Source: Vibrio agarivorans
Lineage (GTDB): Bacteria > Pseudomonadota > Gammaproteobacteria > Enterobacterales > Vibrionaceae
Length of the DNA stretch: 64,000 nucleotides
Reading direction: 5' to 3'
Assembly (NCBI RefSeq): GCF_030409635.1
Contig: NZ_JAUFQF010000004.1
Span: 1,956,241 to 2,020,240, forward strand
Below, piece after piece: positions 35,008-59,231 of this stretch. Position 1 is the first letter of the stretch. Each line of letters begins with the position of its first letter. The position numbers were made by a program, and so were the translations under genes. Under the pieces are notes generated by a model. The model worked only from the letters and a program-made list of their open reading frames with translations, was not told the DNA's origin and ran no database searches.

Positions 35008-36228
35008 ATGAAACGAGATTCCAATTATTTTAATAAAACGCCACTGTTGCTAGCGATGATGATCATCGCTACAGGGCAGGTCGGTGTAAGTATTTACTTA
35101 CCTTCACTTCCGCTAATGAGTGCGTCGTTGGGCGTGGACGCGTCACAAATTCAGCTGGTGGTCACCCTTTTCTTGGTAGGCTTTGGCGCTTCACAGCTGT
35201 TTTATGGCCCCTTATCTGACGCCATTGGCCGCCGGCCCGTGTTCTTATTGGGACAGTCTATTTATCTTATCGGGACAGTCCTGTGTCTTACCTTTACCGA
35301 AAGCTATATCGCACTAATCGCAGGACGCTTATTACAAGGTTTAGGAGCCGGCAGTGCATCGGTATTAAGTCGCAGCGTGTTGCGTGATAGCTATGACGGC
35401 TCTCAGCTAACCAAAGCTTTGTCCTATATGTCTGTCACGGCTTCAATATTACCCATCATCGCACCGGTGTTTGGTGGCTGGATTGCTCACCATTTAGGCT
35501 GGGAAGCCGTATTTAGTTTCGTGCTTGTTTATCTGCTCGCGATTTTTACCGTAGGTTGGTGGATATTGCCTGAAACTCTCCCTTATGCAAAAAGACGATT
35601 TAAACCGAGTGAGTTACTGGGTAACTACGGCAAACTACTTGGCAACTGGCAGGTAATACAAAGCGCAAGCTACAACTGGATAACTTACCTCGGTGCCGTC
35701 GTGACGCTAAGTCTGTTTCCTTTTCTAATGCAAAAGCAGTTAGGGATGTCGGCCGCTGAATACGGCACAATTATGTTGATCCCGTCATTAGGCCTCCTTA
35801 TCGGGACAGTCGCACTCAATATCTTTAGTAAACGACTCTCGCAAGAGCACATGCTGGCCGCGGCGATAGCGATAATATTCATGTCTGGCGTGAGCTTATT
35901 GGTTTCAGATTTCAATTCAACAAACCTAGTACTTGCATTTACGGCATTTGCGTTCGCGCAGGGGATCTCTTTTCCTATTTCTATCGCGAAACTCTTGGCT
36001 CCACACAAAGATCAAGTTGGTGCAGTGTCAGCGTTGTCTGGTTCGATTCAGATGGTGCTCGCAGGGGCTGTTGGTGGGTTATTGATAGAGTACTGGGTAT
36101 CAAGTCAATCCGCTCTAGGTGGTTTGTACATTTTGAGTGCAATGAGTATGTTGTTTTTTATGCTATCGGTATCGGTTCGCAAGTGGGTGAAACCTCGTAC
36201 CCCGATATTAACTCGTGACGACCATTAA
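35008..36228 (+). CDS. Bcr/CflA-family MFS drug exporter
   Basis: The 406-residue, 12-helix MFS protein has the DHA1 pattern: GQVGVSIYLPSLPLM in helix 1, the loop 2-3 motif LSDAIGRRPVFLLG and the antiporter motif GAGSASVLSRSVLRD in helix 5. It likely exports toxic compounds by proton antiport. A divergent LysR gene lies upstream. Three GGACAGTC words (35251, 35273, 35804) are embedded in frame, two with the longer CTTATCGGGACAGTC context encoding LIGTV. Confidence 0.88.
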   Translation: MKRDSNYFNKTPLLLAMMIIATGQVGVSIYLPSLPLMSASLGVDASQIQLVVTLFLVGFGASQLFYGPLSDAIGRRPVFLLGQSIYLIGTVLCLTFTESYIALIAGRLLQGLGAGSASVLSRSVLRDSYDGSQLTKALSYMSVTASILPIIAPVFGGWIAHHLGWEAVFSFVLVYLLAIFTVGWWILPETLPYAKRRFKPSELLGNYGKLLGNWQVIQSASYNWITYLGAVVTLSLFPFLMQKQLGMSAAEYGTIMLIPSLGLLIGTVALNIFSKRLSQEHMLAAAIAIIFMSGVSLLVSDFNSTNLVLAFTAFAFAQGISFPISIAKLLAPHKDQVGAVSALSGSIQMVLAGAVGGLLIEYWVSSQSALGGLYILSAMSMLFFMLSVSVRKWVKPRTPILTRDDH

Positions 36229-36343
36229 CAGTCTGAAGGCGGCATTTTATGTGCTTGTTAATGTGGTGCAACTACAGAGTAAAAGTCGACTAATTCGATA
36301 GTATCTTCTGAATAATGTCGTTAAAATCGCGCGTTTTTTATTT

Positions 36344-37249
36344 ATGGCGATCGTTATGACAATTCTAATGCTTCTTCAAATCGGCCTTTCTATTGGTGGG
36401 GCTATATTTATTTTTATGCTGGTGAAAGCGTGGCGCGAAAAGCGTACCAGCGAGAAAAGCACTAATGTAATGGCGATAGGTGCCATTGGTGGATTTGCCA
36501 ATTTTTGTGACACGTTGGGTGTAGGTAGCTTTGCTATTAAAACAGCGGGTTATAAGCAATTTAATCTGGTGGATGACAAGGATCTACCCGGAACGCTTAA
36601 TGCTCAAGCGGCGTTGGCTACAGTGGCACAAGCACTAATCTTTCTTACCGCAGTCGAAGTTGACATGACCACAATGGTAAGCTTAATTGTCGCAGCGTGT
36701 CTTGGCGCAACGATTGGTGCAAGAATTGTATCGGGTTTAGATCGTCAGATGATTCGTTTGATCATGGGCTGTGCCCTAATGATCGTCGCGCTGTTAATGC
36801 TAGCGGGGCGTTTAGAGCTGTTTCCATTGGGCGGAACGGAGCTAGGTCTATCAGGAACTAAGCTTGCTATCGCAATTGTGGGTAACTTTATTTTTGGTGC
36901 ACTGATGACCGTTGGCATCGGGCTTTATGCTCCTTGTATGACGATGATCTATCTGCTTGGAATGAACCCTATCGCAGCATTCCCGATTATGATGTGTTCA
37001 TGTGCATTCTTGTGCTTCTTCTCTGCGGGTAACTTTATCCAGCGTAAAGCACTTAATACCAGAGCGGCGCTATCCGTTGCTATTACTGGCCCGATTGCCG
37101 TCCTTATCGCGGCATTTATAGTTAAGTCTCTAGACCTAGACACCCTCGCGTGGCTTGTGACTTTTGTAGTGCTTTATACCTCGATAACGATGTTCCGTTC
37201 ATGGTCAAACTCGAGAAACCAAAGTCATGCGCAAACTTTGATTGACTAA
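36344..37249 (+). CDS. TSUP-family (TauE/SafE) permease
   Basis: The 301-residue membrane protein has the TSUP/DUF81 repeat architecture: about eight helices, with GAIGGFANFCDTLGVGSFAIKT in the first half and GIGLYAPCMTMIYLLGMNPIAAFP in the second. Family members export sulfite, sulfoacetate and similar anions; the substrate here is unknown. An ATG four codons downstream (36356) is another possible start. It is followed by a terminator and then the RAYT locus. Confidence 0.85.
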   Translation: MAIVMTILMLLQIGLSIGGAIFIFMLVKAWREKRTSEKSTNVMAIGAIGGFANFCDTLGVGSFAIKTAGYKQFNLVDDKDLPGTLNAQAALATVAQALIFLTAVEVDMTTMVSLIVAACLGATIGARIVSGLDRQMIRLIMGCALMIVALLMLAGRLELFPLGGTELGLSGTKLAIAIVGNFIFGALMTVGIGLYAPCMTMIYLLGMNPIAAFPIMMCSCAFLCFFSAGNFIQRKALNTRAALSVAITGPIAVLIAAFIVKSLDLDTLAWLVTFVVLYTSITMFRSWSNSRNQSHAQTLID

Positions 37250-37599
37250 GGTGTTCTTGGAAGGACAGTCTACTTAAGCCTTTTGCTTAAACATTATAGA
37301 TAAGTAGAACGCGAATAGTGCTTGCTGGTTTACCACCATCAAGCACTTTTTCATTATGAGCGAATCAATACGTTGAGGTGCTCTTGTTCTTGTTCTTATA
37401 AGGACAGGCTAGTTAAAAGGGGAATTGTTGCTTAAAAGGACAGTCTAAAATGGCGGAGGGTGTCATCATTTCATTATTAACCGTGTTGCCTGTGGTGGAT
37501 TTTTAGTGATATTGCTCGATATTTTAAATCTATTGGTAGAGGCATCAGCTAGGATACTTATCTTGGTCAGTTACTTAACTATCATATGGATGTTTAGCA
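37250..37599 (+). repeat. RAYT upstream region with three palindromic words
   Basis: This 350-base gap holds the TSUP terminator and three copies, all in the same orientation, of CTTNNAAGGACAGTC-type words: GGACAGTC at 37263-37270, a variant GGACAGGC at 37402-37409 and GGACAGTC at 37438-37445. On the minus strand each reads GACTGTCCTTNNAAG (the variant GCCTGTCCTTATAAG). TTAAGC-CTTTT-GCTTAA follows the first copy. These are the inferred RAYT recognition words. Confidence 0.75.
37317..37351 (+). terminator. Terminator after the TSUP permease gene
   Basis: AGTGCTTG (37317-37324) pairs with CAAGCACT (37340-37347), and TGGT (37326-37329) with ACCA (37335-37338) above one mismatch, followed by TTTTT. 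Confidence 0.85.
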
Positions 37600-38565
37600 A
37601 TGACCACTGCACGCAAAAAACTCGTCGATACTAACATTACACCTTATTACCATTGCGTATCTAGGTGTGTCAGGCAGTCATTTTTGTGCGGTCACGATAA
37701 AACCTCCGGGAGAAGTTATGAGCATCGCAAACAGTGGGTTGAAAACAGAATTAATCTGCTAACAAAAGTCTACTGCATTGATGTCTGTGCTTATGCGGTT
37801 ATGAGTAACCATTACCACTTAGTTGTGTTTATCGATAAAGCCGGGGCTGAGGAGTTGACGCCATATGAAGTAGTCAATAGATGGGCCATAGGCCACAAAA
37901 TACCGGATATGGTGAAGCGCTGGCAAATGGGCACAGTTGAAAAACCAGCAGAGCTCAAAACTTGTAACAGGTTAATTGAAAGCTGGCGCATAAGATTATG
38001 CGATTTAGGTTGGTTCATGAAGGAGCTCAACTACGATATTGCTAGAAAGGCGAATGAAGAGGATGACTGTAAAGGTCACTTTTGGGAAAGTCGGTATAAA
38101 AGTCAAGCATTGTTAGATGAGTCAGCTTTGATTGCAGCAATGGCGTATGTTGATCTCAACCCTGTACGAGCTGGTGTAAGTAAAAATGCCTTAGCTTCGG
38201 ATTTTACATCCATAAAACGACGGGTGATTGCGCTTGAAAATAATCAAGATACCGCACCCAATTTGGCTGTATTTGTCGGTAGAAATCAGCAGAAAGTCAG
38301 AAAAGGAATTCCTTTTACACTTGCAGAATATGTTGACCTTCTTTGTTGGAGTTCGACGCAAAACCGGCAAGGAAAGGCATCAATTCAAAAGGATATACCC
38401 AGGCTTTTAGGCGGTTTGAATTTGGAACAATCAAATTGGTTAGCTGCGGTGACATTAATTGAAAGGAAGCGGGCGAAGTTTGTTGGATTAAGAAGTAGCC
38501 TGGATAAGCAGCGTGGCAAGATGAGCATTAGCCGAGTGAATGGTGTGAAGCTTGACGTGTTGTAG
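37600..38565 (+). CDS. REP-associated tyrosine transposase (RAYT)
   Basis: The 321-residue protein is a Y1/HUH-type single-strand transposase related to IS200/IS605 TnpA. It has the HUH metal motif in MSNHYHLVV (His71 and His73), a likely nucleophile Tyr145 in KELNYDIAR, and the RAYT hallmark GHFWESRYKSQALL (residues 159-172) followed by YVDLNPVRAGV. It has no insertion-sequence ends or passenger gene; instead it is flanked by inverted copies of a GGACWGTCC word, as RAYTs are by their REP sequences. The extended C-terminus (about 120 residues) is typical of the longer RAYT group. It appears intact. Confidence 0.88.
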   Translation: MTTARKKLVDTNITPYYHCVSRCVRQSFLCGHDKTSGRSYEHRKQWVENRINLLTKVYCIDVCAYAVMSNHYHLVVFIDKAGAEELTPYEVVNRWAIGHKIPDMVKRWQMGTVEKPAELKTCNRLIESWRIRLCDLGWFMKELNYDIARKANEEDDCKGHFWESRYKSQALLDESALIAAMAYVDLNPVRAGVSKNALASDFTSIKRRVIALENNQDTAPNLAVFVGRNQQKVRKGIPFTLAEYVDLLCWSSTQNRQGKASIQKDIPRLLGGLNLEQSNWLAAVTLIERKRAKFVGLRSSLDKQRGKMSISRVNGVKLDVL

Positions 38566-38599
38566 AGGTTTAACGTTCATGGATATTTAGTAAACTAAG

Positions 38600-38802
38600 T
38601 AGTTAATTTGGGACTGTCCTTACAAGCTATCACTCAAAGGTTTGATATTAATTAGAGTGCAACCGCTCTACATATGCACAAAGGTAATGGCAGGAACTTG
38701 GTGAAGTAAAGTATTTTACTTTGGATAGACTGTCCTCTCAAAGGCTAGGTTATGTTCTTTGAACCTGGGTGACTTATCGGGACTGTCCTTTCAAGAGCCC
38801 GA
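38600..38802 (+). repeat. RAYT downstream region with three palindromic words
   Basis: GACTGTCC occurs at 38612-38619, 38728-38735 and 38781-38788, in the opposite orientation to the upstream copies. The first and third continue as GACTGTCCTTNNAAG. The third lies inside an inverted repeat, ATCGGG (38777-38782) with CCCGAT (38798-38803), and the second between CTTTG and CAAAG. No gene is present in this 237-base gap. Confidence 0.75.
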
Positions 38803-38973
38803 TCAAGCCCCCTCAACCTTAGACAGTAAATCACCACGCACAATATCAATCGCCTTTAAAGCAATTTCAGGTGATATCTCATTGGTTTCTAATAGATAAA
38901 TCAGATCCACCGCCAGTTTAACCTCGGCGGGTGCTTGCTCTAAACCACTTGATTGTGTGTTTTCATTGCTCAT
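38803..38973 (-). CDS. ybaM: YbaM family (DUF2496) small protein
   Basis: A 56-codon frame encodes APAEVKLAVDLIYLLETNEI followed by SPEIALKAIDIVRGDLLSKV, the DUF2496 pattern of E. coli YbaM. In E. coli ybaM also follows priC; here its start overlaps the end of priC by 11 bases, supporting a real gene. Function unknown. It is too short for a length-filtered ORF list. Confidence 0.85.
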   Translation of the reverse strand: MSNENTQSSGLEQAPAEVKLAVDLIYLLETNEISPEIALKAIDIVRGDLLSKVEGA

Positions 38974-39493
38974 TTATATGACTCTCTCTGTCGGTTATTT
39001 GGTTTTCAATTTTGATTCTTGCTGCGCGGCAGCGTTCTAGACGTTGCTGGGTGGCTTCGATGACTTGTTGGGACTGTCCTTGTAAGGTGGCGGTTTGGAG
39101 CATTTTCTGTAGGCGAGTTTCCCACTCTTGGTGTTGTATCAAGTCTTGGTGAAGGACATGTATTGGCTTACGGAAGTGACTTGAATGCTTTGGTTCTTGT
39201 GAACGGATAGTCGACGTCGACAACTCGCGTTGAATCGCACTGATTTGGCTGATGAGCTTCTCACTCAAATATTCAGCCCGTTCGTGAGTGAGTGTCCCTT
39301 GCTCTTGCTCACGTTTAATTGAATCTACAATATGCTGAGATTCCACCACACATGGCTGTAACAGACGCGAGCGAGTTTGAAAGAGCTGCTCGTCGAAGAG
39401 GGCAAGGTGGTGCTCTCCTCGTTGTTTATCAAGTTCAGAAGCTTGAACAGATAGTGCTGTAAGCATTTTATCTATTTTTGATAGCTCTACCAT
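38963..39493 (-). CDS. priC: Primosomal replication protein PriC
   Basis: PriC helps reload the DnaB helicase on stalled forks lacking PriA sites. The 176-residue, almost entirely helical protein has an N-terminal KMLTALSVQASELD, the central KPIHVLHQDLIQHQEWETRL and a basic QQRLERCRAARIKIE tail, matching the divergent PriC family. The ybaM partner strengthens the call. A GACTGTCC word (39072-39079) is in frame and encodes LQGQSQQ. Confidence 0.85.
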   Translation of the reverse strand: MVELSKIDKMLTALSVQASELDKQRGEHHLALFDEQLFQTRSRLLQPCVVESQHIVDSIKREQEQGTLTHERAEYLSEKLISQISAIQRELSTSTIRSQEPKHSSHFRKPIHVLHQDLIQHQEWETRLQKMLQTATLQGQSQQVIEATQQRLERCRAARIKIENQITDRESHINEQ

Positions 39494-39508
39494 TGCAGCG
39501 TCTCTTTA

Positions 39509-40279
39509 CTAAAACCAAGCGTCAAAGGCTAGTTTAACCGACAAAACGATAACCACAGTAACAAAAACAGGACGAATAAAACCTGCACCAAAGCGAATGG
39601 CGGAATGCGCGCCAACATAAGCGCCAAGCATTAAGCAGACTCCCATGGTTAAACCGAGCAGCCAGTTGATGTGACCAAGGATGGCAAACGTCACTAGTGA
39701 CGTAAAGTTACTAGTAAAGTTCATCGCTTTAGCAAGGCCAGACGCCAGCAATATATTGAGTCGATACAAAGCCATTGAACTGACTGTCCAAAACGCCCCC
39801 GTACCAGGGCCTGCAACGCCATCATAGAAACCTAGAGTAAAACCTTGCAGATATTGTTTCTTATTCACCTTTGAGCACTTGGCTGGCAGTGTGTTCTTAT
39901 TCGCGTGCTTTGATTTCGGCCACAGGGTATAAACAGCCGTCATTAATATGATGAGCGGCAGTGCTTTTTCTAGCCACTCGGTACTGATGGCATCAACAAC
40001 CAGTGTTCCCGTAATCGCGCCAATGAGCGTAGCAATAAAAGCGGGTATCCAGAAGCTAGGTTCGAACAAACGCTTCTTATAATAAGTAAAAGCAGCAGTA
40101 GAAGACGCAAAACTGGCTGCAAGCTTGTTTGTACCTAAAGCAATATGCGGAGGCAACCCAAGAGAGAGAAGGGCAGGGACAGTTAGCATACCGCCACCGC
40201 CAGCAACGGCATCAATAAAACCAGCAACAAATGCGACTAAAGCAAGCACGACCAGCATGCTTGGTTCGAGAAATTCCAT
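39509..40279 (-). CDS. yfcA: TSUP-family permease, YfcA type
   Basis: The 256-residue inner-membrane protein has the YfcA pattern: FVAGFIDAVAGGGGMLTVPALL in helix 1, LGTNKLAASFASS, and GFYDGVAGPGTGAFW in the second half. Substrate unknown. It is in the leftward dinG-yfcA-priC-ybaM cluster, 10 bases after dinG. It is a different TSUP subfamily from the gene at 36344. Confidence 0.88.
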   Translation of the reverse strand: MEFLEPSMLVVLALVAFVAGFIDAVAGGGGMLTVPALLSLGLPPHIALGTNKLAASFASSTAAFTYYKKRLFEPSFWIPAFIATLIGAITGTLVVDAISTEWLEKALPLIILMTAVYTLWPKSKHANKNTLPAKCSKVNKKQYLQGFTLGFYDGVAGPGTGAFWTVSSMALYRLNILLASGLAKAMNFTSNFTSLVTFAILGHINWLLGLTMGVCLMLGAYVGAHSAIRFGAGFIRPVFVTVVIVLSVKLAFDAWF

Positions 40280-57205: not shown

Positions 57206-57942
57206 GTACGGTACTAATCACCGGTGCGACGTCGGGCATTGGTGAGCAACTCGTTAAGGACTATTCCGCAAAGGGTTGGCAGGTGATTGCTTGTGGTCGT
57301 AACCAAGAAAAACTCGCCCAGCTAGAAAGCCTCAGCGGGTTAATCCACTCCCTTCAGTTTGATGTTTCTGATAGGGCGCAGACTCAGCAAGCGCTTTCGA
57401 CGTTACCCGCACTCCCAGACTTGTGGATCTTTAACGCAGGGAGCTGTGAGTATATTGATGAAGGTGTTATAGACAGTGACGTGATGTCGCGTGTAATGGA
57501 TATCAATTTCCATGGCGTTGTGCGCTGCATAGAGGCGGTACAACACCAATTTGCTAAAGGTATGCGCGTTGCTTTCGTGGGGTCTATTGCAAGCGAAGTC
57601 GCTTTGACTCGCTCTGAAGCCTATGGCGCGTCAAAAGCCGCCTTAAGTTACTTTTCTCGTAGTTACCGCAACGACATAGCGCATAAAGGCGTAGCGGTAT
57701 CTGTGATTTTTCCGGGCTTTGTGAAAACGCCCCTCACAGATAAAAACGACTTTGATATGCCAATGTTGATCAGTGTTGAGGAAGCATCGAAAAAGATTAT
57801 AGAAGGATTAAGCCGTGGTAAAGAATACATCTATTTCCCGCGACGATTTACGTGGATTTTGAGAGTGATTGGGACGCTGCCGTATCAGTGGCAGGCAAAG
57901 ATCACTGCTAAGTTGGTTGGGGTTAAGGAGAACGGACAATGA
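57202..57942 (+). CDS. Short-chain dehydrogenase
   Basis: The 246-residue SDR has TGATSGIGEQLVKDY, FNAGSCEY, the Ser in VAFVGSIASEVAL and YxxxK in AYGASKAAL, then FPGFVKTPLTDKNDFDMP. The C-terminal tail (FPRRFTWILRVIGTLPYQWQ) is typical of the SDR found beside DUF1365 and Cfa-like genes. It likely reduces a lipid or carbonyl intermediate. It overlaps both neighbours by 4 bases. Confidence 0.88.
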   Translation: MSTVLITGATSGIGEQLVKDYSAKGWQVIACGRNQEKLAQLESLSGLIHSLQFDVSDRAQTQQALSTLPALPDLWIFNAGSCEYIDEGVIDSDVMSRVMDINFHGVVRCIEAVQHQFAKGMRVAFVGSIASEVALTRSEAYGASKAALSYFSRSYRNDIAHKGVAVSVIFPGFVKTPLTDKNDFDMPMLISVEEASKKIIEGLSRGKEYIYFPRRFTWILRVIGTLPYQWQAKITAKLVGVKENGQ

Positions 57943-59231
57943 AAATTGCCATCATAGGTAGTGGAATATCAGGGCTTACGTGTGGGTATCATTTGGCATC
58001 AGAGCATGAGATCACAGTTTTTGAAGCCAATGACTATATTGGTGGCCACACGGCGACAAAAAGTGTCGAAGTGGAGGGAAAACGCTTCGATGTAGACACG
58101 GGTTTTATTGTGTATAACGATCGCACCTACCCGAACTTCATTAAAATGATGAACGAAATCGGGGTCAAAGGGATCCCCACTCAGATGAGTTTTTCGGTGC
58201 GTAACGATGGTAACGGCTTAGAGTATAATGGACATACCGTCTCTACTTTATTTGCACAAAAGCGTAACTGGCTTTCACCGAAATTCTATCGTTTTATCTA
58301 CGAAATATTGCGATTTAATAAGTTAGCGAAAGCGTGTGCGGATGTGACGCAAGATGACGATATAACGCTTGGCGACTTTTTATCGCAGCATAATTTCACT
58401 AACTATTTTTGTGAAAATTATATCCTGCCGATGGGGGCTGCTATTTGGTCGTCAACATTGGCGGACATGCGTGCTTTCCCATTATCATTCTTCCTTCGCT
58501 TCTTCTTAAATCACGGCCTACTTGATGTTACCAACAGACCACAATGGTATGTAATTGAAGGTGGCTCACATGCGTATATTGAGCCTCTAACGGCGGCCTT
58601 TAAAGATAATATTCGCCTTAATACACCAGTCAGTCGTGTGACGCGAGATAATGCCGGCGTTGTTGTTGAATCGAAGGGCGAATCAGAGCGTTTTGACCAC
58701 GTTATTTTTGCTTGTCATAGCGACCAAGCACTGCGTCTACTCGGGGATGCAAGTGAGGTAGAGCAGCAGGTACTTACGGATATGACTTATCAAGCGAACG
58801 AGGTGATCCTGCACACCGATGATGCCCTTTTGCCAAAGCGCCGCTCAGCTTGGGCATCATGGAACTACTACTTATCGGGACAGTCTGGAGAAGAGCAGCG
58901 TCTTCCTGCACTGACCTACAACATGAATATCTTGCAGCATATCGAAGCGCCTTCCACTTTTTGTGTCTCCTTAAACTCATCCCAAAAGATTGACCCTAAG
59001 AAGATTCTGAAAACCTTTATCTATGATCACCCAGTGTTTACCACCCAGTCGATTGCGGCTCAAGCACGTAAGAGCGAAGTGAGTGGGGTAAACAACACCT
59101 GGTTCTGCGGTGCGTATTGGCACAACGGTTTCCACGAAGATGGTGTTCGCAGTGCACTCGATGTGGTTAAAGGTCTCAATGACTATGCTCATGAACGTGA
59201 TCATGAACAAACCCGTCTTGGGGCGGCTTAG
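57939..59231 (+). CDS. FAD-dependent amine-oxidase-like oxidoreductase
   Basis: The 430-residue flavoprotein has the FAD motif IIGSGISGLTCGYHLA (residues 4-19), FEANDYIGGHTAT, and DTGFIVYNDRTYPNF, as in NAD(P)-binding amine-oxidase/desaturase-like proteins next to DUF1365 genes. The probable role is oxidation or desaturation of a membrane acyl chain. A GGACAGTC word (58878-58885) in the context CTTATCGGGACAGTC is in frame, encoding LSGQS. ATGA overlap with the SDR gene; 25 bases before DUF1365. Confidence 0.87.
   Translation: MKIAIIGSGISGLTCGYHLASEHEITVFEANDYIGGHTATKSVEVEGKRFDVDTGFIVYNDRTYPNFIKMMNEIGVKGIPTQMSFSVRNDGNGLEYNGHTVSTLFAQKRNWLSPKFYRFIYEILRFNKLAKACADVTQDDDITLGDFLSQHNFTNYFCENYILPMGAAIWSSTLADMRAFPLSFFLRFFLNHGLLDVTNRPQWYVIEGGSHAYIEPLTAAFKDNIRLNTPVSRVTRDNAGVVVESKGESERFDHVIFACHSDQALRLLGDASEVEQQVLTDMTYQANEVILHTDDALLPKRRSAWASWNYYLSGQSGEEQRLPALTYNMNILQHIEAPSTFCVSLNSSQKIDPKKILKTFIYDHPVFTTQSIAAQARKSEVSGVNNTWFCGAYWHNGFHEDGVRSALDVVKGLNDYAHERDHEQTRLGAA

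Follow-up and report, generated by a model that had tools for sequence, protein, structure and literature searches.

Several described systems pair a transposase of the REP-associated tyrosine transposase (RAYT) family with short DNA words, REP standing for repetitive extragenic palindrome. The TnpA-REP enzymes assayed in vitro cut single-stranded REPs at CT or CA, and a GTAG head on the REP can help choose the site (PMC8266576). In three marine gammaproteobacteria REPs are gathered near rayt genes, and multiplication of the flanking repeats has been proposed (Nunvar et al., PMC2817692). TIRtrons, or TIRYTs, carry a RAYT-like gene with terminal inverted repeats (TIRs) instead of GTAG REPs; the TIR motif is GGGGWSAS, and some TIRs are found in the genome as dimers or clusters (Di Nocera et al. 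2013, PMC3733652). Here we describe a RAYT gene, R1, in a 64-kb stretch of the Vibrio agarivorans genome (contig NZ_JAUFQF010000004.1, positions 1,956,241 to 2,020,240; hereafter the window), together with the octamer GGACAGTC that clusters around it. From comparison of this locus with its relatives, we consider the word to be probably the cognate DNA site of the RAYT: a directional end, inverted at or near both ends of a unit with one HUH transposase gene.

A survey of TnpA-Y1 proteins provides the closest class for the protein itself. Subclass 2.3 has a median length of 325 amino acids and a median HUH-Tyr distance of 110, and the survey's account of this subclass gives no REP-like sequences near its genes by either automatic or manual search (Quentin et al. 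2018, PMC6006769). By length and HUH-Tyr distance the R1 protein fits subclass 2.3, which it also resembles in a helical stretch of its structural model and in the several copies per genome found in relatives. It differs from the subclass as surveyed, to which it is assigned on length and motif distance, in that inverted words flank most of the 164 related genes described below.

RESULTS

Inverted words around the RAYT gene of the window

R1 encodes both motifs that define RAYT/TnpA-REP (class 2 TnpA-Y1) proteins, an HUH motif and a Y---NP tyrosine motif. The latter reads YVDLNP and stands 112 residues from the former. NHxH and YxD(L/M)N are matched by 162 of the 164 relatives. The model of R1 has the Y1 transposase fold, and structure comparison placed it nearest to the REP-bound E. 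coli RAYT; the helical stretch lies between the HUH strand and the strand preceding the Tyr helix. A search of solved structures by sequence gave no relevant match. The Y1 HUH fold is also that of IS200/IS605 transposases, but those elements are described as having no terminal inverted repeats and as recognizing subterminal hairpins.

The gene and the words in its immediate surroundings are as follows.

37600..38565, plus strand: RAYT gene R1, 321 amino acids, with intact HUH (HYH, residue 71) and Tyr 183 motifs
37256..37270, plus strand: upstream word CTTGGAAGGACAGTC
37395..37409, plus strand: upstream variant word CTTATAAGGACAGGC
37431..37445, plus strand: upstream word CTTAAAAGGACAGTC, closest to R1, candidate left unit end
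38612..38626, minus strand: downstream word CTTGTAAGGACAGTC
38728..38743, minus strand: downstream word CTTTGAGAGGACAGTC, with CTT one base farther out
38781..38795, minus strand: downstream word CTTGAAAGGACAGTC, within the full palindrome 38773-38795, candidate right unit end
39064..39086, minus strand: word CTTACAAGGACAGTCC as a full 23-base palindrome, within priC

Counting both strands, the window contains 13 exact copies of GGACAGTC, 10 of them within 35251-39789; across 100 dinucleotide shuffles of the window the count averaged 1.11 and never exceeded 4. An earlier note on this DNA had picked out this cluster by eye, and both the cluster and the positions and orientations it gave for the words proved correct. 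Its list of extended words was right in the positions it named and missed a minus-strand copy at 38728 (CTTTGAGA-GGACAGTC), likewise facing R1. Upstream, the plus strand carries octamers at 37263 and 37438 together with a one-base variant at 37402; downstream, the minus strand carries octamers at 38612, 38728, 38781, and 39072. The words therefore point at R1, and in the intergenic flanks every copy is oriented toward the gene. CTT typically stands seven bases ahead of the octamer in the window, which holds 10 copies of CTTNNNNGGACAG; all six window copies of CTTNN(A/G)(A/G)GGACAG are found around R1.

The earlier note had taken the word to be chiefly a palindrome of about 23 bases. This form, CTTNNNNGGACWGTCCNNNNAAG, is complete at just two window sites (38773-38795 and 39064-39086), so most copies are instead one-sided, directional words. 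Single words hardly fold, with 0 and -0.5 kcal/mol for the two words tested.

Words around related RAYT genes

Of 227 genomes of the genus, 76 contain RAYT matches, which in a few are marginal; other bacteria have matches as well. As related genes we accepted tblastn segments of at least 250 columns that started within the first five query residues and had a stop codon inside the examined DNA, criteria by which fragments and frameshifted genes were left out. The 180 genes that passed were reduced to 164 by removing identical copies. This sample was drawn partly from 95 further regions among the matches listed (at most nine per genome), and multi-copy genomes consequently weigh more in it. As a check, we used a set of 74 units under 80% identity.

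Words of the form GGACA-NN-C lie inverted around these genes, mostly 100-300 bp outside them. At 100-200 bp upstream, GGACA pointed inward 214 times and outward 9 times (13.05 versus 0.55 per kb); at 200-300 bp downstream the counts were 146 and 9, and beyond 400 bp they were near background. The 74-unit set gave 228 inward versus 8 outward at 100-300 bp, with words on both sides in 60 of the 74, and GGACA was the most strand-biased of all 5-mers. The commonest words within 450 bp were GGACACAC (275), GGACAGGC (105), GGACAGTC (38), GGACATAC (36), GGACAGAC (32), and GGACACTC (20). Both sides of the gene carry words in 130 of the 164 units, which is the terminal inverted repeat arrangement of a TIRtron.

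In the nearest relative (G007), a RAYT 60% identical to R1 lies between the same neighbors, priC (67% identical) and a major facilitator superfamily (MFS) transporter gene (75%). Its flanks show the same inverted arrangement, with two GGACAGTCC upstream and two GGACAGTCC plus one GGACAGGCC downstream. Since this relative also has a RAYT there, we would regard the window unit as an old copy that has stayed where it was. The link between word and R1 drawn in the earlier note is borne out by inverted flanks at R1, at a second RAYT of the same genome (R2), and at this same-place RAYT, and it extends to the family, in which sister words flank most of the 164 genes.

Two observations concern particular relatives. 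Some of the Planctomycete genes (L086-L109), which are distant relatives, have palindromes of the GGTGCCAGGCACC type (GGTGCC-A-GGCACC) nearby in place of GGACA words. In a Granulosicoccaceae metagenome-assembled genome (MAG), the 600 bp upstream of the RAYT gene (L078) contain 11 GGACAGGC words that point inward.

The middle dinucleotide and the protein tree

The middle dinucleotide NN of the word is GT at R1 and mostly CA or GG elsewhere. We labeled each unit with its commonest NN, excluding from the count of changes the 12 of 164 units with no label or a rare one. Over the remaining 152 units, NN changes 26 times on the protein tree (shuffled mean 50, minimum 45), and the main NN is equal on both sides in 75 of 130 units (shuffled mean 45, maximum 62). 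Judged from these sequences, NN tends to follow the protein tree. R1, the gene of G007, and R2 are close on the tree and all GT, although FastTree issued a long-branch warning; a fourth GT unit (L232) is placed elsewhere. We also considered a one-residue code for NN. Position 149 was promising in a small alignment and fails over the labeled units, where residue C at this position accompanies CA in 72, GG in 7, TA in 4, GA in 4, and GT in 1.

Distribution of the words in genomes

The genome of the window (4,907,847 bases) holds three RAYT genes: R1, R2 on contig 1 (53% identical), and R3 on contig 2 (47%). Genome-wide, the octamer shows no excess, with 72 copies versus 101 for the reversed control, nor does GGACAGTCC, with 13 versus 15. 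We accordingly rejected a genome-wide REP population in this genome, and with it a REP-like spread of the word. The earlier note had named the absence of a genome-wide excess as a finding that would speak against its view. The octamer does lack such an excess in the literal sense, because its excess is confined to RAYT neighborhoods. Within 500 bp there are five octamers at R1 and five at R2, where 0.03 would be expected at each, and between 0.5 and 50 kb there are nine more at R1 and six more at R2 (expected, 1.45). One upstream word at R2 faces away from the gene. The flanks of R3 carry GGACAGGC words.

Of the extended word CTTNNNNGGACAGTC the genome holds 12 copies (reversed control, 2), and 10 of these fall within 34 kb, from the MFS gene to about 31 kb past R1. 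Four are present in G007, all within 26 kb of its RAYT, and the 18 RAYT-less relatives searched have nine in total, zero to two each. The counts for GGACACACACC were 239 over the 26 genomes that have a RAYT match and 40 over the 44 that lack one (Mann-Whitney P = 7e-6). Both words are thus near background in the RAYT-less relatives searched, as the earlier note would have it. Beyond the window, at about 2025362-2025516 of contig 4, four CTTNNAA-GGACAG(T/G)C words are grouped, and two of these form an inverted pair; the group is about 31 kb from R1 and has no RAYT beside it.

Unit ends, arrays, and hairpins

Among near-identical units, similarity drops at or near the words. In Vibrio tapetis, nine copies begin with GGACACACACCAAATAGT, preceded by unrelated host DNA, and their right ends include GTGTGTCC and GTATGTCC. 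In the relatives, left ends lie a median of 130.5 bp ahead of the start codon and right ends a median of 199.5 bp past the stop codon. The average of 260 proximal ends shows A/T-rich outer bases followed by GGACA-NN-CACC. Direct repeats of at least 8 bases beside the proximal words were found in 4 of 130 cases (1.6 expected), so there is no clear target-site duplication; inverted repeats numbered 11 (3.0 expected).

Extra words on one side are often short tandem copies of the junction, most commonly spaced 20-40 bp apart. In same-side word pairs, the outer 8 bases match at 7 or more positions in 122 of 422, as against 11 of 545 opposite-side pairs. Inverted doublets (GGACACAC-N2..24-GTGTGTCC) were found in 16 of 223 genomes, 12 of which have a RAYT match; the reversed control gave one. 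Some of the doublets are perfect hairpins that lie near RAYT genes. In one genome (G144), a 3.4-kb stretch next to a RAYT holds a 30-bp hairpin in four identical copies plus one variant; the identity extends over about 44 bp, and the hairpin folds at -14.8 kcal/mol. These are REPIN-like doublets (REPIN denoting a hairpin of two inverted REPs), in that two inverted copies form a hairpin present several times. In the window's genome, one GT-type doublet was read in this way; it lies some 12 kb away from R2 and folds at -9.1 kcal/mol.

It could be that the words are double-strand operator sites through which the RAYT or another regulator controls expression of the RAYT gene, and that their location at unit ends is incidental. 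Their position 100-300 bp outside the gene on both sides would suit this, as would their retention in G007 despite differing flanks. However, downstream words are about as common as upstream ones and strictly inverted, the words stand at or near the boundaries of shared units, and they also occur as doublets and in the RAYT-less cluster 31 kb away. We therefore regard operator sites as unlikely.

A second explanation is an independent host repeat: RAYT units would insert into the words, as ISPpu9 inserts into REPs, but would take no part in making them. Doublets in genomes with no RAYT match are what such a repeat would predict. Against it, word type tends to track the RAYT tree, the RAYT-less genomes searched hold words at close to background level, and the word is present at both ends together with inner bases particular to the unit, while the host DNA outside is unrelated between copies. 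This leaves a host repeat slightly less probable even than operator sites, and a word belonging to the unit the better account.

At one place a stretch of G167 runs on without a break where G003 has a unit, so units come and go, though not cleanly at this site. Another flank query found no match in G167, which shows little.

Some ends have further features of their own. Tandem repeats resembling microsatellites border the units L209 and L171 (G144): to the left of L209 stand about nine copies of a AGCACCAAA-type repeat whose bases resemble the unit interior, and to the right of L171 about eight copies of a 17-base host repeat. At L214 (G020, contig 3), two nearly identical RAYT units stand in direct tandem, 1270 bp apart. 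At L042 (Vibrio tapetis), about 60 bp of host sequence next to the left end recur in altered form beyond the right end.

Words inside genes

Five of the 10 clustered octamers are inside open reading frames (ORFs): 35251, 35273, and 35804 in an MFS transporter, 39072 in priC, and 39782 in a TauE-family ORF, where the octamer is shared with G007. The genes and extended words concerned, apart from the priC word listed above, are these.

35008-36228: MFS transporter ORF near R1
38963..39493, minus strand: priC, downstream neighbor of R1 (Pfam PF07445, E 1.7e-41)
57939-59231: FAD-dependent oxidoreductase ORF
35244..35258, plus strand: extended word CTTATTGGGACAGTC within the MFS ORF, membership uncertain
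35266..35280, plus strand: extended word CTTATCGGGACAGTC within the MFS ORF, membership uncertain
35797..35811, plus strand: extended word CTTATCGGGACAGTC within the MFS ORF, membership uncertain; the octamer alone also in G007
58871..58885, plus strand: extended word CTTATCGGGACAGTC within the FAD-dependent oxidoreductase ORF, membership uncertain

Compared with 19 relatives, priC has a 9-residue in-frame gap, which the alignment places within codons of the palindromic word at 39064-39086; the region around the word is variable among relatives. At the three MFS sites, 11 relatives show the same or similar residues by way of other codons, and at the third the octamer, with no CTT, is present in G007 too. 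In the gene with the octamer at 58878 there is no gap, and the residues are those of its closest protein (95% identical, Vibrio agarivorans).

We redrew codons while keeping the protein in seven genes, six of them with an octamer, a test made post hoc. For the MFS gene, the redraws averaged 0.05 octamers and 0.006 extended words, and three words did not come up once in 4000 draws; for priC and the 58878 gene, one extended word arose in 12 of 4000 draws each. We had first held the MFS words to be a coding coincidence and withdrew this after the extended-word counts and the redraws.

More broadly, the flanking words might be a chance result of base composition and the remainder one of codon usage. 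The lack of a genome-wide octamer excess and the residues of the wordless relatives at the MFS sites are compatible with this. For the flanking words, chance is refuted by the inward and outward counts over the 164 genes and by five octamers against 0.03 expected near each of R1 and R2. Ten extended words in 34 kb compare with nine across all 18 RAYT-less genomes searched, and the MFS redraws likewise argue against coincidence. We consider this explanation highly improbable.

The words in genes fit a local rewriting by the RAYT. On this view, the three MFS words with the protein largely kept, the priC word at a 9-codon in-frame gap, and others up to 31 kb away would all be its products. That the RAYT writes its own recognition word into its neighborhood, working genes included and without breaking them, is a tentative idea that we rate as doubtful.

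DISCUSSION

The word is best read as the terminal inverted repeat, and at the same time the local REP-like element, of a TIRtron-like unit, and the sequence patterns suggest that it is the enzyme's own candidate target. The interpretation in the earlier note, a RAYT with its REP-like substrate, is partly supported.

Several observations weigh against this assignment. Words stand on one side only in 27 of the 164 units and are absent from seven, of which five are Planctomycete genes and the other two belong to a single gammaproteobacterial MAG. The main NN differs between the two sides in 55 of 130 units, and among the labeled units we found no single residue that sets NN (top columns uncorrected for kinship). 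Several Vibrio tapetis right ends read GTGTGTCT, and right ends are less sharp than left ones. Four of the 16 doublet genomes lack a RAYT match, and G004, also with no RAYT match, has seven GGACACACACC words on contig 45 (156257-191223), most within 35 kb, possibly the relic of a lost unit. The G003 unit is not a clean insertion: host sequence resumes about 1.4 kb past the gene, where 72 host bases are repeated and a further host segment intervenes.

The likeness to TIRtrons may extend to the word: the last part of the TIR motif, GGACAS (W = A, S = C), fits the GGACA-C/G seen here. The words share GGACA(C/G) with GGGGWSAS, but the two preceding bases are usually not GG, with G at -1 in 32% of the 260 ends. 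In addition, the word here is shorter and directional, with a dinucleotide that tends to follow the protein tree, and the protein fits subclass 2.3, whereas 20 of 26 TIRtron examples belong to subclass 2.1 (PMC6006769). The TIRtron passages of Di Nocera et al. (PMC3733652) contain no mention that we found of Vibrio or of GGAC words.

With REPtrons (E. coli tnpA-REP with its GTAG REPs and REPINs; PMC2817692, PMC8266576), the family shares inverted copies around the gene, hairpin doublets, an apparent coevolution of word and protein, and, in some genomes, local accumulation near the gene. REPtrons differ in their GT(A/G)G-headed hairpins and many copies genome-wide; the words here read GGACA with no GTAG head, hardly fold in the two single words tested, and are not spread throughout the genome of the window.

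E. coli TnpA-REP offers an analogy for the mechanism: the enzyme described here may cut single strands at or near the words. The end sequence would be approximately CTTNNAA-GGACAGTC in the window; in the family it would be GGACA-NN-CACC with A/T-rich bases on its outer side. GGAC may serve as the head, and an inverted pair as the hairpin. Cutting might now and then move the whole unit and more often copy the word with a few neighboring bases nearby, and such copying could yield the local clusters, arrays, and REPIN-like hairpins.

Among the papers listed for GGACTGTCC and GGACACACACC, none was on RAYTs; most subscription journals were outside the scope of this search, and the word may be in print elsewhere. 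What is new is a candidate target word for a RAYT branch that had no recognized target DNA in the relevant parts of the Quentin et al. survey (2018). Because each clade now has a candidate site, the function of these RAYTs becomes directly testable with oligonucleotides. The family shows inverted unit ends, local arrays, and REPIN-like hairpins side by side, which bears on the origin of REP populations. If the RAYT does write its word into its surroundings, this would amount to localized single-strand DNA editing, with a clade-drifting dinucleotide as the address code.

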